Assembly: GCA_019637105.1 (NCBI GenBank)
Contig: JAHBWF010000087.1
Coordinates: 1-32,882, forward strand
Direction: 5' to 3'
DNA length: 32,882 nucleotides
Source: Labilithrix sp.
GTDB taxonomy: Bacteria > Myxococcota_A > Polyangia > Polyangiales > Polyangiaceae
Numbering within the stretch: the first letter of the stretch is position 1; every line of letters starts with the position of its first letter. Below the pieces are notes generated by a model, which did no database searches, was not told where the DNA came from, and saw only the letters and a list, made by a program, of their open reading frames with translations. The translations under genes and the position numbers were made by a program. Shown in pieces: positions 3,563-29,688 of this stretch.

Positions 3563-3568
3563 TAGACT
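3563..3568 (+). promoter_or_regulatory. TAGACT -10-like box of ettA
   Basis: The TAGACT box sits 13 nt before the ettA ATG in a gene start without Shine-Dalgarno. No convincing -35 is visible. It belongs to the recurrent TAnnnT set described in the findings; the expected transcript would have a leader of only a few bases. Confidence 0.45.
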
Positions 3569-3581
3569 CCACGCCCCGAAA

Positions 3582-5258
3582 ATGCCCGAGTTCATCTTCA
3601 CCATGCAGGGGGTGACGAAAGTCCACCCCCCCGACAAGCGGGTCCTCGAGAACATCCACCTCGCGTTCTATCCGGGCGCGAAGATCGGCGTGATCGGCGC
3701 GAACGGGTCGGGCAAGAGCTCCCTCCTCCGCATCATGGCGGGGGTCGACACGCAGTTCGCCGGCGAGGCCAAGCCGCACCCCGGCACGCGCATCGGCTAT
3801 TTCGCGCAGGAGCCGGACCTCGGGAGCGCCGCCACGGTCTGGGACGCCGTGAGCGAGGGCGTGAAGGAGACGCAAGACCTCATCACGCGCTTCGAGGAGA
3901 TCAGCAACGAGCTCGGCGAGCCGATGGACGGCGACGCGATGCAGGCGCTGCTCGACGAGCAGGCCGCGCTGCAGGACAAGCTCGACGCCGCCGACGCGTG
4001 GAACCTCGATCGCCACGTCGGCCTCGCGATGGAAGCTTTGCGCGTGCCCGCGCGCGACGCCGAGATCAAGCACCTCTCCGGCGGCGAGAAGCGCCGCGTC
4101 GCGCTCTGCCGCCTGCTCCTCTCGCGGCCGGACATGCTCCTGCTCGACGAGCCGACCAACCACCTCGACGCCGAGTCGGTCGCGTGGCTCGAGCGCTTCC
4201 TGCACGAGTACTCGGGCACCGTCGTGGCGGTCACCCACGACCGCTACTTCCTCGACAACGTCGCGGGCTGGATCCTCGAGCTCGACCACGGGCGCGGCTA
4301 CCCGTTCCAGGGCAACTACTCGGGCTGGCTCGAGCAGAAGTCGGCGCGGCTCGCGCAGCAGGAGAAGACGGAGTCGGCGCGTCAGCGGAAGCTGAAGCAG
4401 GAGCTCGAGTGGGTGCGCGCCTCGCCGCGCGCGCGGCAGGCGAAGAGCAAGGCCCGCCTCGCCGCGTACGACACGCTGCTCGCCGAGTCGCAGAAGACCT
4501 CGGTGGACGCGACCGAGATCACGCTGCCGCCGGGCCCGCGCCTCGGCGATCTCGTGATCGAGGCGACCGACCTGAAGAAGGGCTTCGGCGATCGCGTCCT
4601 CGTCGACGGGCTCTCGTTCCTCCTCCCGCGCGCCGGCATCGTCGGCGTCGTCGGCCCGAACGGCGCCGGCAAGACGACGCTCTTCAAGATGCTCGTCGGC
4701 CAGGAGAAGCCCGACGCCGGCACGCTCAAGATCGGCGAGACGGTGAAGGTCTCCTACGTCGATCAGTCGCGCGACGCGCTCCAGGGAGACAAGAGCGTGT
4801 GGGAGGTCATCAGCGGCGGGAGCCCCACCGTCGAGCTCGGCAAGCGCGAGGTGAACAGCCGCGCGTACTGCTCGTGGTTCAACTTCAAGGGCTCCGACCA
4901 GCAGAAGAAGGTGAAGGACCTCTCCGGCGGCGAGCGCAACCGCGTGCACCTCGCGCGCCTGCTCAAGGAGGGCGGGAACCTGATCCTGCTCGACGAGCCG
5001 ACCAACGACCTCGACGTCGAGACGCTCCAGGCGCTCGAGGCCGCGCTCCTCGGCTTCCCGGGCTGCGTCGTCGTCGTCAGCCACGACCGCTGGTTCCTCG
5101 ACCGGATCGCGACCCACATGCTCGCCTTCGAGGGCGACGGCAAGGTCACGTTCTTCGACGGCAACTACCAGATGTACGAGGAGGACCGGAAGAAGCGCCT
5201 CGGCGACGACGGCGAGAAGGGGCCGAAGGGGAAGTTTCGCAAGCTCGGCGCGATGTAG
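3582..5258 (+). CDS. ettA: Energy-dependent translational throttle protein EttA (ABC-F ATPase)
   Basis: Protein of 558 aa, the usual EttA length, and recognisably close to E. coli EttA along its whole length. It begins [25 protein letters not shown]. The first ATPase domain has [17 protein letters not shown] and [21 protein letters not shown]; the second has [17 protein letters not shown] and [15 protein letters not shown]. Between them lies the charged linker (about residues 245-300, with [18 protein letters not shown]) that reaches toward the peptidyl-tRNA in ABC-F proteins. Family knowledge: it binds the ribosomal E site and gates entry into elongation according to the ATP/ADP ratio. No membrane segments are present, as expected for this soluble class. 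It is preceded by a -10-like box rather than a Shine-Dalgarno. Confidence 0.96.
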
Positions 5259-5283
5259 CGCGACTTCGCGGTCCGGCGTAACC

Positions 5284-5303
5284 GATCGACGCGCGCGTCG
5301 ATC
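5284..5303. repeat. Perfect 20-bp palindrome upstream of the PARP-finger gene
   Basis: GATCGACGCGCGCGTCGATC is a perfect 20-bp palindrome, 25 nt after the ettA stop and 15 nt before the next ATG. It could be a dimeric regulator site controlling the PARP-finger gene, or the stem of a terminator for ettA. The sequence alone cannot decide between these. Confidence 0.6.
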
Positions 5304-5318
5304 CCACGGGGATGAGAG

Positions 5319-5876
5319 ATGGCGCACATCATCGAAGAGGCGAAGTCGGGACGCGCGGGCTGCCGGACGTGCCGCAAGCCGATCGCGAAGGGTGAGCTCC
5401 GGTTCGGCGAGGAGGTCGAGAACCAGTTCGCCGACGGCGGCGAGACCACGTACCGCTGGCACCACCTCGCGTGCGCGGCGGGCGCGAAGACCGACGAGCT
5501 CCGCGCCACGCTCGCGGCGCACGAGGGCGCGCCGCCCGTCCCCGACGCGCAGCGCGCCGAGCTCGAGCGGCTCATGGCGGAGGCCGACGCGAAGAAGCCG
5601 CCGCCCTACCCGCACGCGGACAAGGCGCCCTCCGGGCGCGCGAAGTGCCAGGGCTGCGGCGAGACCATCGCCAAGGGCGAGCTCCGCGTCGCGTACGAGC
5701 GCGACATCGAGCGGGGGATGACCGTGATGAAGGGCGCGGGGTACCTGCACCCCAAGTGCGCGGCCGCCCACTTCGAGGAGAACGGCGGGACCCACGCCGA
5801 GCTGACGGAGGCGCTCCGGACCAACACGCGCGACCTCTCGGAGCAGGAGATGGAGCGGCTCTTCAGCGAGGTCTGA
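5319..5876 (+). CDS. Tandem PARP-type zinc-finger protein
   Basis: Protein of 185 aa consisting essentially of two PARP-type zinc fingers. Finger 1 has C15, C18, H49, C52 and finger 2 has C110, C113, H144, C147. Both fit C-x2-C-x30-H-x2-C exactly, the spacing of eukaryotic zf-PARP fingers (PARP1 finger 2). Each begins with the same SGRA-x-C-x2-C-x3-IAKGELR block, so the protein arose by internal duplication; a linker of about 55 residues joins them. No catalytic ADP-ribosyltransferase or ligase domain is attached. In eukaryotes these fingers recognise DNA nicks and ends, so a DNA-break-binding role is inferred. GATGAGAG just before the ATG is a weak ribosome-binding site. It follows ettA by 60 bp. 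Confidence 0.88.
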   Translation: MAHIIEEAKSGRAGCRTCRKPIAKGELRFGEEVENQFADGGETTYRWHHLACAAGAKTDELRATLAAHEGAPPVPDAQRAELERLMAEADAKKPPPYPHADKAPSGRAKCQGCGETIAKGELRVAYERDIERGMTVMKGAGYLHPKCAAAHFEENGGTHAELTEALRTNTRDLSEQEMERLFSEV

Positions 5877-5970
5877 CGCGGCGGCGCGGCGAGCCCATCC
5901 GCGCCGCTCGCGCGTCCGCCTCCGCGGGGAGCCCGCTCCGAGCGAGGACGAAGTTCGGGCCCGGCCGTAG

Positions 5971-5976
5971 TAGGCT
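5971..5976 (+). promoter_or_regulatory. TAGGCT -10-like box of the CDP-alcohol transferase gene
   Basis: TAGGCT lies 13 nt before the ATG at 5990, the same spacing as at ettA. There is no Shine-Dalgarno between box and start and no clear -35. It supports the chosen start over the longer open frame that runs in from the preceding gene. Confidence 0.45.
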
Positions 5977-5989
5977 CTCGGCCCCGAGC

Positions 5990-6760
5990 ATGCTGAAGGC
6001 GGCGAAAGACATCTACCTCGCGACGCGGAAGAAGCACGATCTGCTCTTCAACGTCTACCTGATGCGCCCGATCGCGGCGGCGGTGGTCGGCGTGCTCGCG
6101 AAGACGCCGATCACGCCGAACCAGGTCACGCTCCTCAACCTGGCGCTCTTCGTCGTCGCCGCGGCGCTCTTCGTGGCGCTGCCGGATCACCGCGGCGGCC
6201 TCGTCGCCGTCGGCGTCCTCGAGCTGTCCTACTGCCTCGACTGCGTCGACGGCATGCTCGCGCGCCACAAAAAGATCGCCTCGAAGGAGGGGCACCTCTT
6301 CGACTTCTTCACCGACGAGATCAAGGCGGTGCTCCTGGCGGCGGCGCTGCCGATCCGCTTCTGGCGGAGCGGCGCGCTCGGCCTCGACGGGCAGGAGTGG
6401 CCGGCGGGGACGCCCGCGTTCCTGTTCGCCGCGACGGCGGCCGCGATCATCCTCGCGTCGGCGACGTCGCTCACGAACTTCGTCCGCCGGCCCGAGATCA
6501 GCGGCCGCGAGTCCCAGGTCGAGGCGCACTACGAGACCGTGGTGGAGGCGAAGCCGAAGTCGCTGGTCGGGCGCGTCGGCGGCCTCGTGACGACGTTCCT
6601 CCGCTTCTTGAACCACTACCCGAGCCACATCTGGATCTTCGCGCTCGCGGGGCGGCTCGACGTGATGTTCTGGATCTACGCGTCGATCAACCTGCTCTAC
6701 CTCGGGCGCGGCTGGCTCGGCATCGTCCTGCGCTTCGGTCGAGCTCCCCGCGCGAGCTGA
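5990..6760 (+). CDS. CDP-alcohol phosphatidyltransferase family membrane enzyme
   Basis: Protein of 256 aa carrying the complete family signature D-x2-D-G-x2-A-R-x8-G-x3-D-x3-D at residues 84-109 (DCVDGMLARHKK then G101, D105, D109). The conserved aspartates bind the metal and the CDP-diacylglycerol or CDP-alcohol substrate. Several hydrophobic segments (about 27-38, 48-64, 70-83, 110-125, 140-160 and near the C-terminus) place it in the inner membrane. It transfers a phospho-alcohol between CDP and an acceptor in phospholipid or related polar-lipid synthesis; the acceptor cannot be told from sequence. The frame is open upstream to 5471 only because it runs through the PARP-finger gene out of frame; the start at 5990 fits the family's N-terminus and the TAGGCT box. 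Confidence 0.88.
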   Translation: MLKAAKDIYLATRKKHDLLFNVYLMRPIAAAVVGVLAKTPITPNQVTLLNLALFVVAAALFVALPDHRGGLVAVGVLELSYCLDCVDGMLARHKKIASKEGHLFDFFTDEIKAVLLAAALPIRFWRSGALGLDGQEWPAGTPAFLFAATAAAIILASATSLTNFVRRPEISGRESQVEAHYETVVEAKPKSLVGRVGGLVTTFLRFLNHYPSHIWIFALAGRLDVMFWIYASINLLYLGRGWLGIVLRFGRAPRAS

Positions 6761-6974
6761 GGCGCCGTCTTCTCGCGCGCGGCCATCTGCGCTAGCGTCC
6801 CGAGTCCATGGTTCGTCGGGGAATCGTGAGGACCGCTTCGCCTGGGAGGGCCTCGCGATGGTCCGACGAAGCCGAACGTCCGACCCGGGACACTTCCTCG
6901 TTCTCCTTTCCCGTGCCCGAGTCCTCGCGGACCCGGGACGCCAAGGCGCAACTCGGTTGCGCCGATCCTGGAAC

Positions 6975-7008
6975 GTCAGGAGCCGTGAGCAGAGATCAGG
7001 CTCCTGAC
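6975..7008. repeat. 10-bp perfect inverted repeat (hairpin 1 downstream of 6760)
   Basis: GTCAGGAGCC at 6975-6984 is matched by GGCTCCTGAC at 6999-7008 with a 14-nt loop. It lies in the 343-bp stretch 6761-7103, where I find no convincing gene. Together with the next hairpin it may end transcription from the phosphatidyltransferase gene, although it lies more than 200 nt after that stop. Confidence 0.55.
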
Positions 7009-7014
7009 CGGAGA

Positions 7015-7045
7015 TTCGCGCCGCTCGCCCATCGGGCGGCGCGAA
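7015..7045. terminator. 13-bp hairpin (hairpin 2), possible terminator
   Basis: Arms 7015-7027 and 7033-7045 pair over 13 bp (one T-G pair) with a 5-nt loop CCCAT. This is one of the strongest local hairpins in the window and starts only 6 nt after hairpin 1. There is no T-tract. The base composition becomes less GC-rich just after it, so it may mark the native edge of the inserted island. Confidence 0.5.
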
Positions 7046-7094
7046 GCGGAGGCTCAGATCAACCGATCACGGCTATAACCGCTCCGAGGAGCCC

Positions 7095-7103
7095 AATTGC
7101 CTT
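7095..7103. repeat. Left copy of 9-bp target-site duplication
   Basis: AATTGCCTT directly abuts the left GGG end of the insertion sequence and is repeated identically at 8571-8579 directly after the right CCC end. Nine base pairs, with GGG termini, is what I recall for members of the ISKra4 family. Confidence 0.85.
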
Positions 7104-8570
7104 GGGTGCGGCTCCATTGCGACGACGGTGGTCGTGAACGATTCCGGGGCGTTGGCGAGCTGACTGGATGAAGGAACGAGGCCTTTTGGTGTAGGAGCGG
7201 GGTTGCGAGACACCAACCCCCACGCACGGAAGGCCTCATGAGCGGAGCTACCACGACGGCGACCTTGGCGGCGGATGCATTCGCGCCCGCGATGGAGAAG
7301 GCGCTCGAGATGACGCGGTACCTGGAGTCCCGAACGGCACTCGCCGTGACGCACACCGAACTGGCTTCGTCGAGAGCGAGGGTCGCGAGTTTCTTCGGCG
7401 GCTGCTCCAGGCCATCACGAGCTGCGCGCACTGGCGGAGCGTCCGGTTCGCTCCGAGGGAGCCGATCGCAGGCCGAGCCGCCGTCCCGTCCTCAGCATCG
7501 TGGGACAGGTCGACGTCACCCGCATCGCGTACCAAGCGCGCGATGTCGAGGGACTCCATCCGATGGACGCCGCGCTGAACCTCCCGCCAGAGCTGTACTC
7601 CCACACTGTTCGACGTCGAGCGGCCGAACACGCGGCCGCCGAGGTGACTCCACGCCGTCTGCGCACCCGGCCGACGAAGGGCGAGAAGCGACACCGCGAG
7701 CGGATGGCGGAGGTCACGGCGATCTACACGATCGCGCCGTACCCTCGGGCCCCGCGCGATGTTCTCGCCGAGCTGCGTCCCGTGCGGGATGTCGAACGCG
7801 ATCGGGCGCGACCGGAGCCGACGAACAAGCGCGTCAGGGCGAGCGTGAGCAAACCTGCCGAGGAGGTCATCCGACGCCTTCGACGAGGCCCTTCGACGCG
7901 ATCCCGAGCGCAAGCGCCGTTGGATCGTCCTCGTCGACGGAAACAAGGACCAGCTTCGCCTCGTGCGACGGGTGGCGAGGAAGGTTGGCGCCGAGATCAC
8001 GATCATCGCCGACCTGATCCATGTCCTCGAGTACCTCTGGAAGACCGCGTACGCGTTCCATGCCGACGGTTCCAAAGAGGCCGAGGACTGGGTCCAGCAG
8101 CGCCTGATGTGGCTCCTGCAGGGCAACGCCGCAAAAGTCCCGCTCGAACATCCTTCGCAACGCGCGGGACCGAGGCCTCAGCGGAAACGCGCTCAAGCCC
8201 ATCACTGCGTACCTCCGCTACCTCAAGGGTGTACGACGGTACCTCGGCTACGACGCCGCGCTCGCGGCGGGACTGCCGATCGCCGCCGGCGTGCATCGAG
8301 GGTGGGTGCCGGTACCTCGTGAAGGACCGCATGGAGAAGGCCGGTGCGCGCTGGTCCCTGACCGACGCCGAGGCCGTCCTCCGACTGCGCGCGCTCCGCG
8401 CGCGCAGTGACTTCGATGCTTACTGGGCGTTCCACTTCGATCGCGAACACGCTCGCCATCATCGTGCGCGCTACGCCGACGACGTTGTGCCGTCACCCAT
8501 TCCGGAGCTCAAACCCGTCCTCCGACGCGTGAAGTGATGGGAAACGATGCGTTTCATGGGAGCCGCACCC
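7104..8570 (+). mobile_element. ISKra4-family insertion sequence (1467 bp, non-autonomous remnant)
   Basis: The ends are defined by a 12-bp perfect terminal inverted repeat, GGGTGCGGCTCC at 7104-7115 and its complement at 8559-8570, flanked by identical 9-bp direct repeats. Inside is a transposase reading frame with clear ISKra4-type blocks that is broken by frameshifts and an internal deletion. The element is therefore shorter than an intact copy should be and cannot make its own transposase, but its ends look competent for mobilisation by a transposase in trans. It sits 173 bp upstream of the low-GC gene at 8744. Confidence 0.88.
7238..8537 (+). pseudogene. ISKra4-family transposase, multiply frameshifted
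   Basis: The frame starting at ATG 7238 gives an N-terminus ending in AVTHTEL. Homology then moves to another frame (GFVESEGREFLRRLLQA, about 7363) and to a third (ELRALAERPVRSEG through GQVDVTRIAYQARDVEGLHP, LNLPPELYSHTVRRR and ERMAEVTAIYTIAPYPR). Near 7873 it shifts again to [20 protein letters not shown] and [21 protein letters not shown], which hold two likely catalytic Asp residues. It continues in a further frame ([13 protein letters not shown], about 8192) and finally returns to [11 protein letters not shown] and YWAFHFDREHARHHRARYADD. Between AAEHAAAEV and KGEKRHRERM about 100 residues expected in the family are missing. At least five frame changes split the catalytic residues, so it is non-functional. 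Confidence 0.88.
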
Positions 8571-8579
8571 AATTGCCTT
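8571..8579. repeat. Right copy of 9-bp target-site duplication
   Basis: AATTGCCTT, identical to 7095-7103, immediately outside the right terminal inverted repeat. Its perfect preservation contrasts with the heavy decay of the transposase inside. Confidence 0.85.
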
Positions 8580-8743
8580 GCACCTCAGACGCAGCAGGCT
8601 AAGTTCAACCGTATCGTCACAATCGAGTCAATCAACACACTCGGTTAAAACACCAAATTCTTACCGCCACCAACGTCGAGCTGAAAGAACAACAATCTGT
8701 CGTACAAACGCGAACCGGTCCTCTGCACCAAGGAGTAGCTATT

Positions 8744-9490
8744 GTGAAAACACCCCTTTCATTGTCGCTGATTGTCTCAACCTTGGCCGTCGCCTGCGCA
8801 TGGCCCCCGTCGAGCGAAGACGACACCGCCAGCATCCCGAACGTCGATCTATCGGATTCGAACGACAGTGTCGTCGACTTTGAGGATGACGGCGACCCCA
8901 ATGAGGTTTTCACGCAAACCGTGGTTTTGGTTCGTGACGACGGCAGCATCGCCACGTCGTCGTCCACGATTACCCGCGCCGAACAATGGAAGTTGCGAAG
9001 GCAAGCTCAAGGATCCAGCGAAACCGTGAAGTTTGACGACCGCGTACACACTCGCGAGGGGTGGACGATACCCACTGGATGCACCCCCAGCTCGGCGCTG
9101 TCAATATGGGATCAGCCAAACTACGTCGGAAATACGCTTTGCATGGCGTATCAAGCGCTGGCGCCAATCTACCTTCCTGGACTGGATTTCGGAACGATTT
9201 CGCGCGGCGCTCCAACTTCATGTGGGTATCACATGTGGTGGGAGGTGCCCCGAACGTGCGTATACAATCCGGTTGTTGGCGCCTGGCATTGGGAGAGCAG
9301 CCCCTTTGCCACAAACACACTTCATATTGGGAGTCTGAAAAACCTCTCTGGAAAGGCTGGGAGGCTCTCCAACAATAGTTCCGCCTGCAACACGAGCGGC
9401 ACCCTCATCTCGGTTGGCCAGCAGTCGTCATCCATCGGTCCATTCGCACTCCGATACATCAAGGCTGTCGGGGCTCCTCCCTGTCCTTGA
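8744..9490 (+). CDS. Secreted or lipoprotein-like protein of low-GC origin, unknown function
   Basis: Protein of 248 aa with a clear signal peptide (MKTPLSLSLIVSTLAVAC); C18 sits in a lipobox-like site, so it may be a lipoprotein. Residues 20-60 are acidic (DSNDSVVDFEDDGDPNE). The C-terminal half has six cysteines (GCTPS, LCMAY, SCGYH, TCVYN, ACNTS, PPCP) and many aromatic residues and glycines, suggesting a disulfide-rich beta fold; the stretch SIWDQPNYVGNTLCM distantly recalls beta/gamma-crystallin-like or I36-inhibitor repeats, but I would not assign it. The GTG start is fixed by AAGGAG 8 nt upstream. Base composition and codon use (many A/T wobble bases) differ strongly from every neighbour, a sign of horizontal transfer. 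It ends convergent with the ligase gene. Confidence 0.82.
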   Translation: MKTPLSLSLIVSTLAVACAWPPSSEDDTASIPNVDLSDSNDSVVDFEDDGDPNEVFTQTVVLVRDDGSIATSSSTITRAEQWKLRRQAQGSSETVKFDDRVHTREGWTIPTGCTPSSALSIWDQPNYVGNTLCMAYQALAPIYLPGLDFGTISRGAPTSCGYHMWWEVPRTCVYNPVVGAWHWESSPFATNTLHIGSLKNLSGKAGRLSNNSSACNTSGTLISVGQQSSSIGPFALRYIKAVGAPPCP

Positions 9491-9589
9491 CGTAGCGGCG
9501 ACCCGTAGTCGCGCGCGCTCGATGACGCCGACTCCAATCAGGAGCGCACGAGCACGGCATCATGGGCGCGCGCGAAGGAGGTCGAGAGT

Positions 9590-11287
9590 CTAGACCGCCC
9601 GTTCGCGGAGCTCGCGCTTGAGCACCTTGCCGGTGGGGTTGCGGGGCAAGGCGTCGAGTACGACGAAGTCGCGCGGCACCTTGGGGCCGGCGAGGCGCTC
9701 GCGCGCGAAGGCCTTGAGCGCGGCCTCGTCGAGCGTCGCGCCGGCGCGCGGGACCACGAACGCGCGGACGCGCTCTCCCCACTCGCGATCCGGCACGCCG
9801 ACGACCGCGACCTCACCCACGTCCGGGTGCTGCTCGAGGATCCCCTCGATCTCCGCCGGGTAGACGTTCACGCCGCCGGAGATGACCATGTCGCGCTTGC
9901 GGCCCTCGATGAAGTAGCGGCCGTCGCGATCGCGGCGCGCGAGGTCGCCGACGCTGAAGTAGCCGTCGACCATGCTCGAGCGCGTCGCCTCCTCGTCCTC
10001 GTGGTAGCCGGCGACGAGCAGCTTGTTCTTCACGTAGAGCTCGCCGACCTGCCCCGCCGGCACCTCGCGCTTGTCGTCGTCGAGCAAGCGGATGTCGTTG
10101 CCGGGCACCGCCCGGCCGATCGTCCCGGGCGCCGCGCGGAGGTCCTCCGGCTTGCCGAGCGTGACGAGGCCGGTCTCGGTCGCTCCGTAGAAGTTGTAGA
10201 GGACGTCGCCGAACGCATCCATGAAGTCGATCGCCAGCGGCCCGGGCAAGGGCGCGCCGCCGGTGAACACGACGCGCAGCGAGCGCGCGTCGTAGCGGCT
10301 CCGGGTCTCCTCGGGCAGCTCCATCACGCGGTGGAGCATCGTCGGCACGACCGCGGTGGTCGTCACCGCGTGGCGCTCCACGAGCTCGAGGAAGGGCTCG
10401 GCCTTGAACTCATCCATCAAGACGACCGTCGCGCCGAGCACGTGAGACAGCGAGAGGAAGCCGAACGCCGTCGAGTGGTAGAGCGGGCAGGTCACGAGGT
10501 GGACGTCGTCGACGCGCATCGGCGTCTCGTTGATGAAGCGCATCGCGGCCTGCATCGTGTCCTTCGGGAACTTTCGGACCGCGCCCTTCGGCTTCCCCGT
10601 CGTCCCCGACGTGTAGACGACCACCGCGGCGTCCTCGTCGGCGCCGGTGTCCGCCGTGAGCTCGCGCGCGGGCTCCTCGAGCAAGGCGTCGAGCGGGGTG
10701 GCCTCGAGCTTCGGCGACCGGACGCCCTCCGAGCCGACCACGAAGACGTTGGAGAGGAGCGTCGCGGAGAGCGCCGGGCTCGCCTCCTCGACGACGGGGA
10801 GGAGCTCCGGCTCGGTCACGATGCCGCGCGCGCCGGAGTGGTTCAGGAGGTAGGTGAGCTCCTTCGCGGTGGAGCGCCAGGAGACGCTCACCGCCGCGGC
10901 GCCGCAGCGCGCCGCCGCAGCGCCCAGCTCGACGTGCTCGGGGCGGTTGCGCATCATGAGGACGACGCTCTGCTTTCGCCCGATGCCGCGCCGCGCGAGC
11001 CCGGACGAGAACCGGTCGATCCGCCCGTCGAGCTCCGCCCACGTGATCGCCCGGCCGCGCCAGACGAGCGCCGGCTTGCTCGGCGAGTTTCTCCCGTGCA
11101 CGCGGTAGATCTTGGACGGGTTCTGCGACCCGCTCGTGAACACCTTCGCGAGCTCGACCAGCCCCGGGCGCGTCAACGACCAGAGCAGCCCGCTCTGGCG
11201 CGAGAGCTGCGCCGAGACGCGGGCCCTGTCGGGGAGCTCGCGGAGCCCCTCGCGCAGGCCTCGAGCGCGCTCCAAGACATTCCACAT
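9590..11287 (-). CDS. Long-chain fatty acyl-CoA synthetase-like AMP-dependent ligase
   Basis: Protein of 565 aa, normal for the ANL adenylate-forming superfamily. The AMP-binding P-loop YTSGTTGKPKG is at residues 225-235, then YGATETG, the hinge-region block SVGDLARRDRDGRYFIEGRKRDMVISGGVNVYPAEIE, and the C-terminal NPTGKVLKREL with the catalytic lysine. It should activate a carboxylic acid, probably a fatty acid, to acyl-AMP and then acyl-CoA. An N-terminal extension of about 60 residues precedes the core; chain-length preference cannot be read from sequence. The start at 11287 is supported by a TAGGTT box 6 nt upstream. It is divergent from the PilZ gene with only 32 bp between the two start codons. 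Confidence 0.93.
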   Translation of the reverse strand: MWNVLERARGLREGLRELPDRARVSAQLSRQSGLLWSLTRPGLVELAKVFTSGSQNPSKIYRVHGRNSPSKPALVWRGRAITWAELDGRIDRFSSGLARRGIGRKQSVVLMMRNRPEHVELGAAAARCGAAAVSVSWRSTAKELTYLLNHSGARGIVTEPELLPVVEEASPALSATLLSNVFVVGSEGVRSPKLEATPLDALLEEPARELTADTGADEDAAVVVYTSGTTGKPKGAVRKFPKDTMQAAMRFINETPMRVDDVHLVTCPLYHSTAFGFLSLSHVLGATVVLMDEFKAEPFLELVERHAVTTTAVVPTMLHRVMELPEETRSRYDARSLRVVFTGGAPLPGPLAIDFMDAFGDVLYNFYGATETGLVTLGKPEDLRAAPGTIGRAVPGNDIRLLDDDKREVPAGQVGELYVKNKLLVAGYHEDEEATRSSMVDGYFSVGDLARRDRDGRYFIEGRKRDMVISGGVNVYPAEIEGILEQHPDVGEVAVVGVPDREWGERVRAFVVPRAGATLDEAALKAFARERLAGPKVPRDFVVLDALPRNPTGKVLKRELRERAV

Positions 11288-11293
11288 GGCTCG

Positions 11294-11299
11294 AACCTA
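11294..11299 (-). promoter_or_regulatory. TAGGTT -10-like box of the acyl-CoA ligase
   Basis: On the minus strand TAGGTT lies 6 nt before the ATG at 11287. Transcription would begin at or within a base or two of the start codon. Only 5 bp separate it from the opposing TATCCT box of the PilZ gene. Confidence 0.55.
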
Positions 11300-11304
11300 T
11301 CAGG

Positions 11305-11310
11305 TATCCT
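11305..11310 (+). promoter_or_regulatory. TATCCT -10-like box of the PilZ gene
   Basis: TATCCT lies 9 nt before the ATG at 11320, with no Shine-Dalgarno in between. It is arranged back to back with the ligase box, so polymerase footprints for the two promoters must overlap. Confidence 0.5.
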
Positions 11311-11319
11311 CCCCTGTCG

Positions 11320-11762: not shown

Positions 11763-11791
11763 TTTACCGGGGCGCGCGGCGGCTCTAGGTT
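11763..11791 (+). promoter_or_regulatory. nadA promoter candidate (TTTACC-17-TAGGTT)
   Basis: TTTACC (11763-11768) and TAGGTT (11786-11791) are separated by 17 bp, and the -10 box ends 8 nt before the ATG at 11800. The predicted transcript has essentially no leader. Confidence 0.55.
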
Positions 11792-13762: not shown

Positions 13763-13791
13763 ACTATAGCCCGGGAGCCCGACGCCGTCAG
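13763..13791 (-). promoter_or_regulatory. MlaE-type gene promoter (CTGACG-17-TATAGT)
   Basis: On the minus strand CTGACG (13791-13786) and TATAGT (13768-13763) are 17 bp apart, and the -10 ends 9 nt before GTG 13753. It supports this start over the longer upstream frame and predicts a near-leaderless transcript. Confidence 0.6.
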
Positions 13792-20012: not shown

Positions 20013-21362
20013 TCAGCGCCCGCGCGCGTTGCGCGGACGGCGGTGGGAGGAGCCGAGCATGGGGCGCGCTCCGTCGGCGCTCGCCGCGAGGTCCTTCATG
20101 TCGATCGTCGCGACGAGGAGCCCGAGCCTCACGCGCGCGCGGTTCTGCGGGGCGAGCTCCTGCACGATCCCGAAGCGGTTGGCGAACGGTCCGGCGAGCA
20201 CGCGGACCTTCACGCCCTTCTCGACGGGCAGCGACGGATCGACGTCGTTGCCCGCCGGGGCGCCGCGCGCGCGCAGCGACGTCGGCAGGATCGGGCGGCG
20301 CGGCGGGACGAGGCGGACCGCGCCCGCGTCGGCCTTGGCGCGCTCGACGTCGGCCTCGCGCTCCTCCTTCGAGACGCGCTCCTTCGGCGCGGCCTCGCGA
20401 TCCGCGGCCGAGAGGATCCGCCGCGCGTCCTCGCGCTCGCGGCGCGAGCCCTCCTTGCGGACGGGCCCCTTGCGCACGCCCTTCCTGCGCTTTCGGCGCT
20501 CCTCGCGGCCGCGCTCGCGCCGCTCCTCGAGGCGCGAGGCGCGACGCGCCCGCCACGCCCCGCGCCGCGTCGCGGCGATGAGGTCGTTGTCCGGGGCCCA
20601 CGCGACGAGCTTGTAGACGTGACCGAGCGCGACGAGCGCGTCGGCGAGGAGCTCGTCGATCTCCTCGGCGTGGGCGAGCGCGACCTCGCGCTTCACCGAC
20701 CAGCCCATCCAGAGCGGGCGGCGGTTGCGCTGGCTGTCGTCGAGGAGCGCGCGGATGTCGTCCGCCGAGGCGGCCTGCGCGCGCGGGAAGCTCGGCACGC
20801 CGATGACGCCGATCGCGAACTCGTCCGGCATCGACTCGAGCAGCGACGTCAGCTCGAGGAGCGCCGTGGGATCGGCGATGCGCGCGCGCGTGTTCTTCAC
20901 GTCGGCTTCGGCCTCGGGGCAGACCTCGAGGCTCACGGCGACGTGGACGCTGTCGATCGTGAGCGCCAGGTAGGTGTGGGATCGGAGCGGGTCGAGCTCG
21001 GGCTCGGTGCGCGGCACGAAGCTCCGCGCGTAGGCGTCGCGCACGAAGACGACGCGCTGGGCGATCGCGCGCGGCGCGCCGGACGACAGGTGCTGCTCCA
21101 CCTCGTCCGGGACGACGACCTCGACCGCGATGCCGAGCTCGGCGAGGCGTGGCGAGAGCGCCCGCGCCCACGCCTCGATGCGTTCGCGGAGCGCGCGGCG
21201 CTGCGCGGCCGCGCCGTGGCTCGGGCCGAGACCGCCGAACGATCGTGGCGAAGCCGCGCTCGTCCCCGTCGATCCGGCGCGAGACGCCGCGGTCGTGGGC
21301 TCGAGGAAGGCGTCGAAGTCGGCGCTGGTCAGTCGCAGCGCGCCGGACGGCGGGGCTGGCAC
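20013..21362 (-). CDS. KOW-motif protein of unknown function
   Basis: Protein of 449 aa from the GTG at 21362. The N-terminal half (from RLTSADFDAFLEP to about residue 280) looks like a folded domain that I do not recognise; it includes AEEIDELLADALVALGHVYKLVAWAPDNDLIAA. A highly charged Arg/Glu/Lys segment (about 285-365) follows, and the C-terminus has a KOW-type motif (VEKGVKVRVLAGPFANRFGIVQELAPQNRARVRLG, about residues 390-425), as in NusG or ribosomal L24/L26 proteins. RNA or ribosome contact is inferred from the KOW motif and the basic linker only. The frame is open up to 21740, but GTG 21362 has a near-consensus promoter 8 nt upstream and conserved-looking sequence begins right there. 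Confidence 0.8.
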   Translation of the reverse strand: MPAPPSGALRLTSADFDAFLEPTTAASRAGSTGTSAASPRSFGGLGPSHGAAAQRRALRERIEAWARALSPRLAELGIAVEVVVPDEVEQHLSSGAPRAIAQRVVFVRDAYARSFVPRTEPELDPLRSHTYLALTIDSVHVAVSLEVCPEAEADVKNTRARIADPTALLELTSLLESMPDEFAIGVIGVPSFPRAQAASADDIRALLDDSQRNRRPLWMGWSVKREVALAHAEEIDELLADALVALGHVYKLVAWAPDNDLIAATRRGAWRARRASRLEERRERGREERRKRRKGVRKGPVRKEGSRREREDARRILSAADREAAPKERVSKEEREADVERAKADAGAVRLVPPRRPILPTSLRARGAPAGNDVDPSLPVEKGVKVRVLAGPFANRFGIVQELAPQNRARVRLGLLVATIDMKDLAASADGARPMLGSSHRRPRNARGR

Positions 21363-21370: not shown

Positions 21371-21398
21371 AGCATACGGTCCCCAGCCTGCGTGTCAA
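21371..21398 (-). promoter_or_regulatory. KOW-gene promoter (TTGACA-16-TATGCT)
   Basis: TTGACA (21398-21393) and TATGCT (21376-21371) are 16 bp apart on the minus strand, an almost textbook housekeeping promoter. The -10 ends 8 nt before GTG 21362, so transcription should start at the GTG itself. This is the best single case for leaderless initiation in the window. Confidence 0.75.
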
Positions 21399-21494: not shown

Positions 21495-21746
21495 ATGAGC
21501 TCTTCCGTCATTCCTCGCCACGCGCGTCGACCGGCCGGACTTTCGCAAGCGTCCTTCGAGAGCCAGCGCGCACCCGAGCAGCGCGTCCTGGCATCCGACG
21601 TGATGGACGGGAGCGACGAGGACGGTGACCCGATGCCGCCCTCGTCTCGATCGCCCGGAATGCACCTCGGGCATGAGGTGTTGCTCGCCGTAATCACCGC
21701 CATGGCGCTCTTCGCCACGCTGCTCCTGAACGCGACCCACTGCTGA
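21495..21746 (+). CDS. Small tail-anchored membrane protein coupled to the sigma factor
   Basis: Protein of 83 aa: a polar, acidic N-terminal region (SDVMDGSDEDGDPMPPSSRSPG) and one C-terminal transmembrane helix (about residues 60-79, HEVLLAVITAMALFATLLLNATHC). Its stop shares one base with the sigma-factor start (TGATG), so the two are translationally coupled. GGAGG lies 3 nt before the ATG, which is short; an in-frame ATG at 21456 would add 13 residues, and 21603 is also possible. Wobble-base bias is weak in the first 25 codons and strong afterward, which supports coding at least for the helix part. I do not recognise a family. Its position suggests it anchors or restrains the sigma factor at the membrane; that is inference. 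Confidence 0.62.
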   Translation: MSSSVIPRHARRPAGLSQASFESQRAPEQRVLASDVMDGSDEDGDPMPPSSRSPGMHLGHEVLLAVITAMALFATLLLNATHC

Positions 21747-22990
21747 TGACCCACCCCGCCCCTCCCTCGCTCTCTCTGGACGACGCCGACGCGGGGTCCG
21801 TCGCGCTGACTCGGAAGAGAAAGCGTGATAGACCCGCCGACGTGCCGCGTGAGCCGACCGTGAAGCGCCCCTCCCAAGGGAAGACCGCCGCGCAGGGCAA
21901 GTCCCGCGGCGCTGGAAAGAGCAAGGGATCCGAGCCGCCCCCGAGCGGGTCGGAGGACACGAAGCCCCGCGACGAGGACGAGGACGTCGAAGCCGAGCCC
22001 GCGGGCGTGGACGACGAGATCGCAGGCGCCGAGCCCGCGGACGACGAGGACGCGTTCGCCGAGCCGAAGGACGACGAGGGCGAGACGAGCGTGAGCTCGG
22101 GCCCGCTGTCCAAGCCGATGTCGAGCGGCTCGATGGAGCGCCTCGACCCGATGGCGGCCTACCTCCGCGAGGTCCAGCGTCACCCGCTCCTGACGCCAGA
22201 GCAGACGCACGAGCTCGCCGCGAAGTTCGTCGAGACGCAGGATCCGGCGATCGCGGCGCAGCTCGTCACCGCGAACCTTCGCCTCGTGGTGAAGATCGCC
22301 TACGAGTACCGCCGCGCCTACAAGAACATCATGGACCTCGTGCAGGAGGGCAACATCGGCCTCATGCAGGCGGTCAAGCGGTACGACCCGTACCGCGGCG
22401 TGAAGCTCTCGAGCTACGCGGCCTGGTGGATCCGCGCGTACATCCTGCGGTTCATCCTCAACAACTGGCGCCTCGTGAAGCTCGGGACCACGCAGGCGCA
22501 GCGAAAGCTGTTCTTCAACCTGCGGAAGAAGCGCGCCGAGCTCCAGGCGATGGGCGTCGATCCGACGAACGCCGAGATCGCCAAGCAGCTCAACGTCCCC
22601 GAGAGCGACGTCGCCGAGATGGACGTGCGCCTCGCGCAGAGCGAAAAGTCGCTCGACGCGCCCGTGGGCGACGCCGACGGCCGCGCGATCGCCAAGGTCG
22701 ACATGATGCCCGCGACCGGCGCGGGCCCCGAGACGCAGATGGCCGACGAGGAGCTGCAGTCGCTCCTCAAGGACAAGCTCGCCGAGTTCAGGAAGACCCT
22801 GGTGGGCAAGGAGAAGGACGTCGCCATCTTCGACATGCGCCTCGTCGCCGACGACCCGCTCACGCTCCAGGACCTGGGCGACAAGTTCGGGATCTCGCGC
22901 GAGCGCGTCCGCCAGCTCGAGCAGCGGCTCCTCGCCCGCCTCCGCGACTACCTGAAGCGCGAGATGGGCGACGCCACCGACTCGCTCTGA
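21746..22990 (+). CDS. rpoH: RNA polymerase sigma factor, sigma-32 (RpoH)-like
   Basis: Protein of 414 aa. Residues about 133-265 are sigma regions 1.2-2 (DPMAAYLREVQRHPLLTPEQ, NLRLVVKIAYEYRRAYKNIMDLVQEGNIGLMQAVKRYDPYRGVKLSSYAAWWIRAYILRFILNNWRLVKLG), followed by the RpoH-type block QRKLFFNLRKKR. Region 4 with its helix-turn-helix is DPLTLQDLGDKFGISRERVRQLEQRLLARLRDYL near the C-terminus. An N-terminal extension of about 130 residues, lysine-rich and then strongly acidic, is absent from E. coli RpoH (284 aa). It may autoinhibit or recruit a partner. Coupling to the small membrane protein suggests post-translational control. The stimulus is unknown; general stress or heat-type genes are the usual targets. 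Confidence 0.9.
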   Translation: MTHPAPPSLSLDDADAGSVALTRKRKRDRPADVPREPTVKRPSQGKTAAQGKSRGAGKSKGSEPPPSGSEDTKPRDEDEDVEAEPAGVDDEIAGAEPADDEDAFAEPKDDEGETSVSSGPLSKPMSSGSMERLDPMAAYLREVQRHPLLTPEQTHELAAKFVETQDPAIAAQLVTANLRLVVKIAYEYRRAYKNIMDLVQEGNIGLMQAVKRYDPYRGVKLSSYAAWWIRAYILRFILNNWRLVKLGTTQAQRKLFFNLRKKRAELQAMGVDPTNAEIAKQLNVPESDVAEMDVRLAQSEKSLDAPVGDADGRAIAKVDMMPATGAGPETQMADEELQSLLKDKLAEFRKTLVGKEKDVAIFDMRLVADDPLTLQDLGDKFGISRERVRQLEQRLLARLRDYLKREMGDATDSL

Positions 22991-23061: not shown

Positions 23062-23067
23062 TAGCCT
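23062..23067 (+). promoter_or_regulatory. TAGCCT -10-like box of rsmI
   Basis: TAGCCT ends 6 nt before the GTG start at 23074, with no Shine-Dalgarno. No clear -35 is seen. The same hexamer at the same spacing occurs at the FliI/YscN gene. Confidence 0.5.
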
Positions 23068-23073: not shown

Positions 23074-23934
23074 GTGAGCACGGAGCGCGGACCCGGCACG
23101 CTGTTCGTCGTCGCCACGCCGATCGGCAACCTGGGTGACGTCACGCTCCGCGCGATCGAGGTCCTGAAGGCCTGCGACCGCGTCGCGGCGGAGGACACGC
23201 GGCAGACGAGGAAGCTCTTGTCGCACCTCGGCATCGTCGGCAAGCCGACCACCTCCCTCCACGCCCACTCGAGCGAGCGCGACGTCGCCGCCGTCGTCGA
23301 CGCGCTCGCCACAGGTGAGTCGGTCGCGCTCGTCACGGATGCGGGGACGCCGAGCGTGAGCGATCCGGGGGACGCCGTCGTCAAGGCCGCCGTCGCCGCG
23401 GGGATCCGGGTCGTGCCGATCCCGGGGCCGAGCGCGGCGCTCGCGGCGCTCGTGGCGAGCGGGCTCGCGGGCGGCGGGGGCTTCCGCTTCGTCGGCTTCC
23501 TCCCGCGGGACGGGGCCGCGCGGCACGAGGCCGTCGGCGAGGTGTGCGCGACGCCCGAGCCCGTGATCCTGTTCGAGTCGCCCGAGCGCACCGCCGCGAC
23601 GCTCGCCGAGCTCGCGGAGGCCACGCCCGACCGGGCCGCGTGCGTCGCGCGCGAGCTCACGAAGATCCACGAGGAGCTCGTCCGCGGGACGCTGGCCTCG
23701 CTCGCGAAGGATCGCGACGCGTGGCGGGGCGAGATCGCGATCGTCCTCGGGGCGTGGTCGCCGGAGGGGCGCGAAGAGAGCGTCGGCGAGGCGGAGCTCG
23801 ACGCGCGCATCGACCGCGAGCTCGCCGCCGGCGGGCACTCGAAGACGATCGCCGAGCGCGTCGCGGCGTGGAGCGGGCGGCCGAAGCGCGAGGTCTACGA
23901 GCGCGTCGTGACGCGCAAGCGCGCGCCGCGGTGA
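23074..23934 (+). CDS. rsmI: 16S rRNA (cytidine(1402)-2'-O)-methyltransferase RsmI
   Basis: Protein of 286 aa, the usual length. It methylates the ribose of C1402 in the decoding centre of 16S rRNA, using S-adenosylmethionine. All family blocks are visible: VATPIGNLGDVTLRAIEVL near the N-terminus, AEDTRQTRKLLSHL, VTDAGTPSVSDPG, the glycine-rich PIPGPSAALAALVASGL, FVGFLPR, and ESPERTAATL. Start is GTG, fixed by the TAGCCT box. It ends 4 bp from the convergent glutaredoxin-like gene, so the two 3' ends must share or overlap their terminators. Confidence 0.96.
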   Translation: MSTERGPGTLFVVATPIGNLGDVTLRAIEVLKACDRVAAEDTRQTRKLLSHLGIVGKPTTSLHAHSSERDVAAVVDALATGESVALVTDAGTPSVSDPGDAVVKAAVAAGIRVVPIPGPSAALAALVASGLAGGGGFRFVGFLPRDGAARHEAVGEVCATPEPVILFESPERTAATLAELAEATPDRAACVARELTKIHEELVRGTLASLAKDRDAWRGEIAIVLGAWSPEGREESVGEAELDARIDRELAAGGHSKTIAERVAAWSGRPKREVYERVVTRKRAPR

Positions 23935-23938
23935 GCCG

Positions 23939-26704: not shown

Positions 26705-26713
26705 GGCGCGCGC

Positions 26714-26719
26714 ACTCTA
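26714..26719 (-). promoter_or_regulatory. TAGAGT -10-like box of the ABC-F gene
   Basis: TAGAGT on the minus strand ends 9 nt before ATG 26704, inside the 59-bp gap after the XRE gene. No clear -35 was found. It would allow the ABC-F gene to be transcribed separately from the regulator. Confidence 0.45.
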
Positions 26720-26763
26720 CCCCAGGCCTCGCGCGTCGCGAGCGCGGCTCGAGCGAACGGCGC

Positions 26764-27339
26764 TCAGCCCTTCTTCTTCGACACCGGGAGGTAGGCCGAC
26801 TTCGGCGGCGCGTCCTTCACGTTCAGGTCCGGGTCTTCCTTGATGCGGCGGAGGTCGCGCGCGAGGTCCTTCGCGTAGTGGATCCAGTAGTCGCGTCCGG
26901 GATCGACGCCGTCGTCCGGCACCGCCGCGCGGAGCGCCTCGATGACCTCGGGCGCGACGTACGAAGCGAGGAGCGCGATCGCCTCCGCCCGGCTCGGGTA
27001 GAGGTCCGACGGCGACGGCGCGCGCGCGGCCGAGCCGGCGCCGTCCGCTCCGACCACGAAGACGTCGCTCAGCCGCTCGCGCGGGCCGTCGCCCTTCGTC
27101 AGCCAGTCGACCGAGACGCCGAGCGCGTGGGCGAGCTTCCGCGCCGTGTCGAATGGGAGGCGCGCGCCGCGATCGCCCGACCGGAGCGAGTTGACGTACT
27201 GCGACGTGAAGCCGGCCCGGCGCGCGAGCTCGCCGCCGCTCAGGCGGCGGGCGTCCATCGCCTCGCGGAGCCGCGTCTGCCAGTCGCCGGCCGTCGCAGG
27301 CGGCGCGTCCGGCGCCGGTTCGCGCTCGCGGGAGCTCAC
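26764..27339 (-). CDS. XRE-family helix-turn-helix regulator
   Basis: Protein of 191 aa from GTG 27339. Residues about 19-72 form a Cro/C1-type HTH (LREAMDARRLSGGELARRAGFTSQYVNSLRSGDRGARLPFDTARKLAHALGVSVDWLTKGDG). The C-terminal half (about 95-170, YPSRAEAIALLASYVAPEVIEALRAAVPDDG...YWIHYAKDLARDLRRIKED) is mostly helical and not a domain I recognise. Start: the frame is open to 27477, but that would run across the divergent phosphatase start; GTG 27339 has a good promoter 6 nt upstream. It sits 86 bp from the divergent PP2C gene, with an AT-rich palindrome between them that is a natural operator candidate. ABC-F follows on the same strand. Confidence 0.88.
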   Translation of the reverse strand: MSSREREPAPDAPPATAGDWQTRLREAMDARRLSGGELARRAGFTSQYVNSLRSGDRGARLPFDTARKLAHALGVSVDWLTKGDGPRERLSDVFVVGADGAGSAARAPSPSDLYPSRAEAIALLASYVAPEVIEALRAAVPDDGVDPGRDYWIHYAKDLARDLRRIKEDPDLNVKDAPPKSAYLPVSKKKG

Positions 27340-27345
27340 CCGAAC

Positions 27346-27374
27346 AGGGTACGCGGGGCCGCGCCCGCCGTCAC
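27346..27374 (-). promoter_or_regulatory. XRE-gene promoter (GTGACG-17-TACCCT)
   Basis: GTGACG (27374-27369) and TACCCT (27351-27346) are 17 bp apart on the minus strand; the -10 ends 6 nt before GTG 27339. This predicts a leaderless transcript and supports the start. Confidence 0.6.
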
Positions 27375-27390
27375 CCGTTCGGCCACGCCA

Positions 27391-27425
27391 GTTGACAACT
27401 TTAGTTTCTGTTTCAAGTTGACAGC
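27391..27425. promoter_or_regulatory. AT-rich 35-bp imperfect palindrome, candidate XRE operator
   Basis: The left half 27391-27403 (GTTGACAACTTTA) matches the complement of the right half 27413-27425 (GCTGTCAACTTGA) at 10 of 13 positions, with a 9-bp spacer. The perfect core is CAACTT/AAGTTG. It ends directly at the ATG of the phosphatase gene and contrasts sharply with the GC-rich surroundings. AGTTGACA also occurs twice as a direct repeat within or at the edge of it. Confidence 0.6.
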
Positions 27426-28319: not shown

Positions 28320-28341
28320 CGCGCATTTCGCAGCCGAGATG

Positions 28342-28358
28342 CGTCGAAGTACTCGACG
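28342..28358. terminator. Short hairpin between convergent PP2C and FliI/YscN genes
   Basis: CGTCGA/TCGACG (28342-28347/28353-28358) with a 5-nt loop AGTAC, in a 55-bp gap between convergent genes. A weaker CGCAT/ATGCG pair (28322-28326/28339-28343) overlaps it. There is no T-tract. Confidence 0.45.
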
Positions 28359-28374
28359 GATCGCAGCGCGCGCG

Positions 28375-29676
28375 TCAGGCGACGACGCGGACGAGGTGCG
28401 CCACGGTCTCGTCGAAGGCGACGCGATCGGCGGGAGACTGCCGGAGAAACTGCTCGATCTTGGGCATCTTCGCGAGGGCCTCGTCGAGCTCCTCGTCGCT
28501 GCCCTTCGCGTAGGCGCCGAGCATCACGAGATCGCGCTTCGCCTCGTAGCGCGCGACGAGCGCGCGCAGGCGGCGCGCGGCGTCGCGGTGCTCCGGCGCG
28601 ACCACGGCGTCCATGACGCGCGAGAGCGACGCCGTGGGATCGACCGCCGGGTAACGGCCGCGCGCGGCGACGGCGCGATCGAGCACGACGTGGCCGTCGA
28701 GGATGCCGCGCACCTCGTCGGCGATCGGCTCGTCCATGTCGCCGCCCTCGACGAGCACGGTGTAGATCGCCGTGATGGCGCCGCGCGAGCCCTGCCCCGA
28801 GCGCTCGAGCAGCCGCGGGAGCGTCGCGAAGACGCTCGGCGGGTAGCCGCGCCGCGCCGGAGGCTCGCCGGCGGCGAGGCCGACCTCGCGCTGCGCGCGC
28901 GCGAAGCGCGTGACGGAGTCGACGAGGAGCATCACGCTCCGTCCTCGATCGCGGAAATGCTCGGCGTAGGCCGTCGCGACCTGCGCGGCGCGAAGGCGCT
29001 CGAGGGCGGCGACGTCGCTCGTCGCGACGACGACGACGCTCCGGCGGCGGCCCTCCTCGCCGAGCGCGTGCTCGAGGAACTCGCCGACCTCGCGACCGCG
29101 CTCGCCGACGAGCGCGACGACGACGACGTCCGCCGCGGTGCCGCGCGCGATCGCGCCGAGCAGCGTGCTCTTGCCGACGCCCGAGCCGGCGAAGAGGCCG
29201 ACGCGCTGGCCCTCGCCCATCGTGAGCAGGCCGTCGAGGACGCGCACGCCCGTGGCGAGCGGCCGGCTCACCGGTCGGCGCTCGAGGGCGATCGGCGGGT
29301 CGGCGTCGACCGGGACGATCGCGCCGCCCTCGATCGGCCCGCGGCCGTCGATCGGCCGCCCCAGCCCGTCGACGACGCGGCCGAAGAGCGCGTCGGAGGC
29401 GCGTACGGCGAACCCGGCGCCGGTGGACTCGACCTCGTCGTCCGGGCCGACGCCGACGATCGCGCCGAGCGGCATCCCGATCGCCTCGCCGCGCTCGAAG
29501 CCGACGACCTCGCACGCGAGCGGCTCGCCGCGGCGCTTCACCGTCACGACGTCGCCGACGCGGACGCCCGGCATGCTGAAGCGGAGCGACAGCCCGGTCA
29601 CCCCGAGCACGCGGCCCACGGGACGCAGCGCGGCGGTGGCGGCGAGCTTGGCCTTCAGCGCGTCCAGCGAGGACAT
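28375..29676 (-). CDS. FliI/YscN-family export ATPase, isolated from other secretion genes
   Basis: Protein of 433 aa, the normal length for flagellar FliI or type III secretion SctN. Walker A is GLFAGSGVGKST; further family blocks are LVGERGREVGEF, VMLLVDSVTRFARAQREVGLAAGEPPARRGYPPSVFATLPRLLERSG, and GSRGAITAIYTVLVEGGDMDEPIADEVRGILDGHVVLDR. It should form a hexamer that unfolds and feeds substrates into a flagellar or type III-like export gate. No other component of such a machine is in this window. The ATG lies 15 nt after the dnaJ stop, so it can be co-transcribed, but a TAGCCT box in that small gap (29688-29683), 6 nt before the ATG, suggests a promoter of its own. Confidence 0.92.
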   Translation of the reverse strand: MSSLDALKAKLAATAALRPVGRVLGVTGLSLRFSMPGVRVGDVVTVKRRGEPLACEVVGFERGEAIGMPLGAIVGVGPDDEVESTGAGFAVRASDALFGRVVDGLGRPIDGRGPIEGGAIVPVDADPPIALERRPVSRPLATGVRVLDGLLTMGEGQRVGLFAGSGVGKSTLLGAIARGTAADVVVVALVGERGREVGEFLEHALGEEGRRRSVVVVATSDVAALERLRAAQVATAYAEHFRDRGRSVMLLVDSVTRFARAQREVGLAAGEPPARRGYPPSVFATLPRLLERSGQGSRGAITAIYTVLVEGGDMDEPIADEVRGILDGHVVLDRAVAARGRYPAVDPTASLSRVMDAVVAPEHRDAARRLRALVARYEAKRDLVMLGAYAKGSDEELDEALAKMPKIEQFLRQSPADRVAFDETVAHLVRVVA

Positions 29677-29682
29677 CGCCCC

Positions 29683-29688
29683 AGGCTA
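29683..29688 (-). promoter_or_regulatory. TAGCCT -10-like box of the FliI/YscN gene
   Basis: TAGCCT on the minus strand ends 6 nt before ATG 29676 and lies wholly inside the 15-bp gap after dnaJ. The same box at the same distance precedes rsmI. Confidence 0.45.

Follow-up and report, generated by a model that had tools for sequence, protein, structure and literature searches.

TAnnnT boxes 6–9 nt before start codons suggest leaderless transcription in a Labilithrix genome

The stretch of DNA analyzed here (hereafter, the window) comprises 32,882 nucleotides (nt) of contig JAHBWF010000087.1 of Labilithrix sp., in which the hexamer TAnnnT recurs at a short distance before start codons. With a probability of roughly 90%, these boxes act as -10 elements of sigma-70-type housekeeping promoters, positioned 6–9 nt before the start codon, an arrangement that would produce leaderless mRNA. 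Sigma-70 polymerase initiates RNA ~6–9 nt downstream of the -10 hexamer; consequently, a -10 element located 6–9 nt before a gene would set the RNA start at or near the start codon. The RNA would begin at the first base of that codon (A or G) or within ~3 nt of it, and the mRNA would then have neither a leader nor a Shine-Dalgarno (SD) site. An assembled 70S ribosome would presumably bind the 5' start codon, as proposed for leaderless mRNA elsewhere. The position and enrichment of the box, its bias toward the first genes of transcription units in this genome, the lack of SD sites, the weak -35 and extended -10 sequences, and the recurrence of the box before orthologs are seen in the sequence; the RNA 5' end and the translation route are inferred.

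The assembly consists of 8.45 Mb in 334 contigs and is 91.5% complete. The closest named NadA proteins (94, 93, and 87% identity) belong to metagenome-assembled Labilithrix sp. and to another Myxococcales bin, and the lineage is accordingly treated as Labilithrix-like (Polyangia, Myxococcota). The analyzed genome sample included the window and 40 further stretches (706,533 bases, ~8% of the genome). Gene starts were assigned by a purpose-written gene finder that uses only codon usage and start-codon type, with GC3-seeded training, so that they are computed rather than measured throughout. In total, 546 genes were called, of which 516 were usable and 494 had a known neighbor; those located at the end of a stretch, or preceded by fewer than 80 nt of sequence, were dropped. 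The distance d is the number of nt between the TAnnnT hexamer and the start codon. Genes with a divergent neighbor, or located at least 40 nt from a same-strand neighbor, were designated unit-first (n = 358), and 136 genes were operon-internal.

TAnnnT at d = 6–9 was found before 67 of the 494 genes, while 300 dinucleotide shuffles averaged 4.17 and never exceeded 12. Counts at d = 6, 7, 8, and 9 were 20, 17, 10, and 23 of 516 genes; at d = 0–5 they were 1, 0, 0, 0, 1, and 1, three in all. Such a limit would be expected on the assumption that transcription has to cover the entire start codon. At d = 10–13, 12 boxes were present before the 358 unit-first genes versus ~4.7 expected. The first-pass annotation, from which this analysis proceeded, had put the chance rate of the motif at a few percent, and this estimate was correct: nine-position control windows farther upstream matched in 16, 9, 10, 12, and 7 of 516 genes, compared with 86 of 516 at d = 5–13. 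The same annotation had proposed a genome-wide count, with no excess at -6 to -13 speaking against its idea; a sharp excess was found in the ~8% sample. Among 64 patterns of the XYnnnZ type, TAnnnT ranked first (z 19.5; the runner-up reached 5.7). Positions 3 and 5 were most often occupied by G and C, respectively. Boxes with one mismatch were also in excess (TAnnn[ACG], ~26 genes; [ACG]AnnnT, ~14 genes), and T[CGT]nnnT showed a deficit of 5 (overlaps not removed). After subtraction of background, exact boxes explain about 16.5% of unit-first genes (59/358), and the leaderless share of these genes could range from ~16% up to a quarter or slightly more if one-mismatch boxes are included.

In the window, all eleven TAnnnT hexamers reported by the first-pass annotation were found at the distances it gave, and the codon-only gene finder chose the box-adjacent start for each of the eleven genes, among them mlaE, rsmI, the XRE gene, and the KOW-labelled gene, which start with GTG. 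The four -35-like hexamers it had named (TTGACA, CTGACG, GTGACG, and TTTACC) are likewise present, with spacers of 16–17 bp as read by hand:

11786..11791, + strand, -10 box TAGGTT, 8 nt before the ATG of nadA at 11800
11763..11768, + strand, -35-like TTTACC, 17 bp from the nadA -10 box
11305..11310, + strand, -10 box TATCCT, 9 nt before the ATG of the PilZ-domain gene at 11320
11294..11299, - strand, -10 box TAGGTT, 6 nt before the ATG of the acyl-CoA ligase gene at 11287; faces the PilZ -10 box, 5 bp apart
13763..13768, - strand, -10 box TATAGT, 9 nt before the GTG of the MlaE permease gene at 13753
13786..13791, - strand, -35-like CTGACG, 17 bp from the MlaE -10 box
21371..21376, - strand, -10 box TATGCT, 8 nt before the GTG at 21362 of gene 20013-21362 (weak KOW match)
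21393..21398, - strand, -35 TTGACA, 16 bp from the -10 box of gene 20013-21362
23062..23067, + strand, -10 box TAGCCT, 6 nt before the GTG of rsmI at 23074
26714..26719, - strand, -10 box TAGAGT, 9 nt before the ATG of the ABC-F gene at 26704
27346..27351, - strand, -10 box TACCCT, 6 nt before the GTG of the XRE-family regulator gene at 27339
27369..27374, - strand, -35-like GTGACG, 17 bp from the XRE -10 box
29683..29688, - strand, -10 box TAGCCT, 6 nt before the ATG of the FliI/YscN-family ATPase gene at 29676
3563..3568, + strand, TAGACT, 13 nt before the ATG of ettA at 3582; leaderless reading unsupported
5971..5976, + strand, TAGGCT, 13 nt before the ATG of the CDP-alcohol transferase gene at 5990; leaderless reading unsupported

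Upstream DNA was usable for 22 window genes; nine of these have the box at d = 6–9 (mean of 300 dinucleotide shuffles 0.26, maximum 2) and 11 have it at d = 6–13 (mean 0.55, maximum 3). The window is richer in boxes than the remaining sample (9/22 vs. 58/472; Fisher P = 0.001). The leaderless interpretation is supported for nine of the eleven genes, although for rsmI this support is limited to the box in this genome and does not extend to conservation. The interpretation is unsupported for ettA and the CDP-alcohol transferase gene, whose d = 13 is outside the d = 6–9 peak.

In this genome, the boxes belong mostly to the first genes of transcription units. By the gap criterion, 64 of the 67 box genes are unit-first (64/358 vs. 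3/136 operon-internal genes), and the FliI/YscN-type gene is among the three exceptions. SD matches of at least 5 nt occur in none of the 67 box genes; the corresponding share is 19% among the 279 unit-first genes that lack a box and 24% among the 136 operon-internal genes. A 4-nt match is present in 20/67 box genes. The 3' tail of 16S rRNA, which carries the anti-SD sequence, was searched for in the assembly and was not found. Pooling with relatives gave 1/176 box genes versus 197/1132; the pool contains homologous and near-identical loci (e.g., L168/L040, L163/L018, and L170/L019/L017), which makes all pooled P values too small. Start codons of the 67 box genes are ATG (43), GTG (23), and TTG (1).

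The sequence context of the boxes was also compared with that of sigma-70 promoters. A TTGACA-like hexamer with at least four matches, 15–19 bp upstream, accompanies 30% of box genes versus 14% of pseudo-boxes (P = 0.006), and eight permuted hexamers gave 1–15%. When relatives are pooled in, TTG and TGA show a maximum 22–23 nt before the box. An extended -10 TGn directly precedes the box in 7/67 genes compared with 3.5% expected per site (P = 0.009), and in relatives in 26/109 compared with 4.3% expected, homologous loci being included in that pool. Among the window -35/-10 pairs read, TTGACA-16-TATGCT of gene 20013-21362 is the nearest to consensus.

The box recurs before orthologs of most of the supported genes. 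For nadA, TAnnnT at d = 6–9 was found in 34 of 69 loci including our own, some of which are near-duplicates, and eight control arrangements gave 0–6/69. Automatic start placement overlooks some boxes in this count: the Sorangium loci L034 and L036 were scored as box-less, yet TACCTT lies 7–8 nt before an ATG. The box is retained in nadA of Sorangium So0157-2 (L032, TACCTT, d = 8), and TTTACC or TTTACG is also found as the -35-like sequence of nadA in L002, L003, L006, L009, L011, L013, L021, L024, and L030. As for the FliI/YscN-type ATPase, 13/27 loci (own included) have the box at d = 6–9, with 0–6/27 for controls. Counts for the acyl-CoA ligase, PilZ, MlaE, and KOW-labelled genes and for box-less control genes refer to the best 14 loci at most. 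The box was detected in 11 of the best 14 loci for MlaE, with CTGACG also in L002 and L003, and in 8 of the best 14 for both the acyl-CoA ligase and PilZ genes. For the KOW-labelled gene it is present in all three relatives whose start was placed (no start was placed in a fourth), and TTGACA occurs in L002 and L004, not in L006. All five non-own XRE loci have the box at d = 6–7, with [AG]TGACG 17 bp before it in four of them and 10 bp before it in L336. Box-less window genes taken as controls showed no boxes in relatives (alr, 0/14; ABC exporter 19151-, 0/9; sigma factor, 0/6); these counts omit rows without a placed start, and some rows are paralog matches.

The spread of the trait was analyzed with the same pipeline in samples of 80–200 kb, counting TAnnnT at d = 6–9 before all genes, with the mirror pattern TnnnAT in brackets:

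G057: 10/88 (mirror 3)
G015: 8/56 (mirror 1)
G054: 4/48 (mirror 2)
G030: 4/53 (mirror 2)
G012: 6/93 (mirror 3)
G026, same genus: 3/47 (mirror 4)
G038, same family: 2/47 (mirror 1)
G035: 2/53 (mirror 2)
G033: 2/48 (mirror 0)
G001: 2/40 (mirror 1)
Sorangium So0157-2 sample (L265-L274): 2/114 (mirror 2)
G089, other family of the phylum: 6/66 (mirror 4)
G117, other family of the phylum: 5/69 (mirror 1)
G081, other family of the phylum: 3/89 (mirror 1)
G115, other family of the phylum: 0/63 (mirror 0)
G079, other family of the phylum: 3/67 (mirror 2)
Named loci L002-L016 and L040, nadA left out: 36/156 (mirror 8)
Named loci L017-L039 and L041, nadA left out: 32/180 (mirror 13)
L043-L081, mixed Bacteroidota, Myxococcota, Deltaproteobacteria, and others, nadA kept: 27/282 (mirror 20), 11.4 expected

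L042 is in neither named-locus set. The spread is uneven: the signal is clear in our own genome, G057, and G015 and is near background in the Sorangium sample; low values in relatives are uncertain owing to the small size of the samples. For unit-first genes, the same pipeline gave 13/74 in the D. radiodurans megaplasmid MP1, 0/46 in E. coli K-12, and 64/358 in our own genome. Given a nadA box amid a nearly box-free sample, loss of the trait in Sorangium So0157-2 may have proceeded one gene at a time.

Several observations weigh against leaderless transcription or narrow its reach. Most box-less unit-first genes have neither a box nor a 5-nt SD match, for which the leaderless reading gives no explanation. 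The -35 signal is present but weak, and d = 9 could mean a leader of 1–3 nt. The unit-first bias is weaker in relatives, where the box precedes 5/36 (G057), 3/30 (G012), and 16/94 (L002-L041, nadA included) operon-internal genes, and in the window the FliI/YscN-type gene has a box though it starts 15 nt behind a dnaJ-like gene. Few boxes were found in G026 of the same genus, with a higher mirror count, or in G038 of the same family. Conservation is restricted to the genus for ABC-F (4/14 non-own loci, all four of the same genus) and is lacking for rsmI (2/29 loci, own included; controls 0–2), ettA (0/30 loci at d = 6–9, 3/30 at d = 5–13), and the CDP-alcohol transferase gene (no box in the three related loci found). 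In addition, C at position -1 is not distinctive in our own genome (57% of box genes vs. 54% of box-less unit-first genes, P = 0.78). In pooled relatives the corresponding values are 65% and 49% (P = 0.003). By distance, pooled box genes have C at -1 in 62–66% at d = 6, 7, and 9 and in 53% at d = 8; its reading as an initiator signature is weakened by the box-less genes of our own genome.

The boxes might be genuine -10 elements while true translation starts lie farther downstream, giving ordinary short leaders. The starts are, after all, computed, and another in-frame start follows within 60 nt in 31/67 box genes and within 20 nt in 11 of these 67, the latter also weighing against the leaderless reading. 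We nevertheless regard this alternative as improbable: the codon model selects the box-adjacent start, the next in-frame start lies a median of 66 nt away, no box gene has an SD match of at least 5 nt before the chosen start, and related FliI/YscN-type loci keep the start at about the same place while the codon alternates between ATG and GTG.

Less probable still is a role of the box in translation or on the mRNA, for instance as an A/U-rich ribosome or S1 site, with no promoter involved. Such a signal would fit the fixed position relative to the start codon and the boxes before operon-internal genes of relatives. However, operon-internal genes need translation signals too, and the box is rare before them here (3/136); moreover, the specificity lies in T1, A2, and T6 and is accompanied by -35-like and TGn sequences. 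An equally slight chance is assigned to an artefact of GC-rich composition, or of TAG stops truncating open reading frames (ORFs) just upstream of the first start. Many boxes do contain TAG, and the highest counts fall at the in-frame distances d = 6 and d = 9. Nonetheless, TAC..T and TAT..T are enriched like TAG..T and TGA..T is not, the shuffles average 4.2 (maximum 12) against 67/494, and 1468 internal in-frame ATG, GTG, and TTG codons are preceded by only five boxes at d = 6–9. For the sample as a whole, chance, TAG-stop, and internal-start artefacts are ruled out by these three comparisons, while the single boxes of ettA, the CDP-alcohol transferase gene, and rsmI may still be due to chance.

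Under leaderless transcription, the divergent acyl-CoA ligase and PilZ genes would share a compact promoter region:

11288..11319, no strand assigned, 32-bp spacer between the divergent start codons of the acyl-CoA ligase gene (11287, - strand) and the PilZ gene (11320, + strand), holding both -10 boxes

The two genes stand head to head in 17/40 named loci. In L002, L003, L004, and L040 the spacer is 31–32 bp long and its core TATCAGGTATCC is unchanged, the ligase side in L040 being TACAGA without the final T; the other 13 loci differ in spacer or core. Only 1/79 divergent pairs in the genome sample is shorter than 45 bp with both boxes, so such close pairs are uncommon in this genome. From the known footprint size of the polymerase, two polymerases cannot occupy such a spacer together, and the two promoters would thus be mutually exclusive. 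A joint reading of these data is tentative, its odds being somewhat short of even. It holds that Polyangia have leaderless genes at the scale seen here for the Deinococcus megaplasmid, with gene-specific long-term retention (of nadA boxes across many relatives, among them Sorangium So0157-2 with its otherwise nearly box-free genome sample). Leaderless placement would let divergent genes share a ~31-bp spacer; with the acyl-CoA ligase and PilZ boxes 5 bp apart, the polymerases would have to exclude each other, and each -35 region would lie in the partner's coding sequence, forming a compact either/or promoter.

As for the annotation of the window, curated cut-offs were exceeded by ettA, rsmI, MlaE, FliI/YscN, and ABC-F (NF000355, ribosomal protection-like), and Pfam cut-offs by NadA, PilZ, the acyl-CoA ligase, the CDP-alcohol transferase, and XRE (as HTH_3). 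The label "KOW" of gene 20013-21362 comes from a Pfam match below threshold (16.2 bits vs. a cut-off of 22.3). Divergent from this gene is a sigma-70-family factor gene (21746-22990) with regions 1.2, 2, 3, and 4. An AT-rich segment (27393-27423) between the XRE regulator and a PP2C-type phosphatase gene contains arms TGACAACTT and AAGTTGACA, 13 nt apart and complementary at 8/9 positions, which look like a putative operator for the XRE protein. GC content of the window is 62–75% in 2-kb steps. The region 6800-9500 has partly lower GC (62.5% in 8001-10000) and no gene called by the codon model; four ORFs tested there had no Pfam match, and the region is perhaps acquired or remnant DNA. The first-pass annotation had described the box-less genes as mostly operon-internal or equipped with a real SD site. 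This description fails, because only 2/13 box-less genes (17352- and 20007-) lie less than 40 nt behind a same-strand gene. Its two SD examples held in part: AGGAG before 970- and AAGGAG before 8744 are present, whereas the ORF at 8744 is uncalled by the codon model and has no Pfam match.

In Mycobacterium and Streptomyces, high-GC bacteria of a different phylum, leaderless transcripts use both GTG and ATG starts and have been mapped by 5'-end sequencing. According to the parts of Zheng 2011 (PMC3160421) drawn on here, a TANNNT whose first T lies ~12 bp before the start is a sign of leaderless genes; high-GC groups retain little beyond T1, A2, and T6; and 8/33 delta-proteobacterial genomes contain leaderless genes, on average 15.8% (5.7–20.6). 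That class shares TANNNT at a fixed short distance with our genome. The same parts contain no evidence on individual genes of the present lineage, and no word starting with Myxo or Sorangium stands in the main text. In the portions of Zhong 2025 (PMC12340547) used here, nearly one-third of D. radiodurans genes have an upstream TANNNT at ~6–7 bp, where it works as a -10 element and an added -35 element helps at the right spacing. For Deinococcus-Thermus, these portions offer reporters and transcriptome data (PMC12340547), whereas the Labilithrix boxes are known from sequence alone; here, the most frequent bases at box positions 3 and 5 are G and C, and boxes are as frequent at d = 9 as at d = 6. 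The first-pass annotation knew of no detailed description for the lineage. Literature titles and abstract beginnings agree, showing no study of leaderless transcription in Myxococcota and no 5'-end map for the lineage, but the delta-proteobacterial count in the consulted parts of Zheng 2011 precedes it. Thus, the arrangement is already known from Deinococcus, Actinobacteria, and delta-proteobacterial genomes; new are the per-gene evidence in a Labilithrix-like lineage, the uneven spread among relatives, and the conserved 31–32-bp face-to-face promoter pair.

Should between a sixth and a quarter of the unit-first genes be leaderless, SD-based annotation of starts would be partly wrong, and expression constructs that rely on a leader may fail for box genes. 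The group would then represent a Gram-negative model for leaderless initiation, in which the uneven spread makes the gain and loss of this mode of initiation testable.

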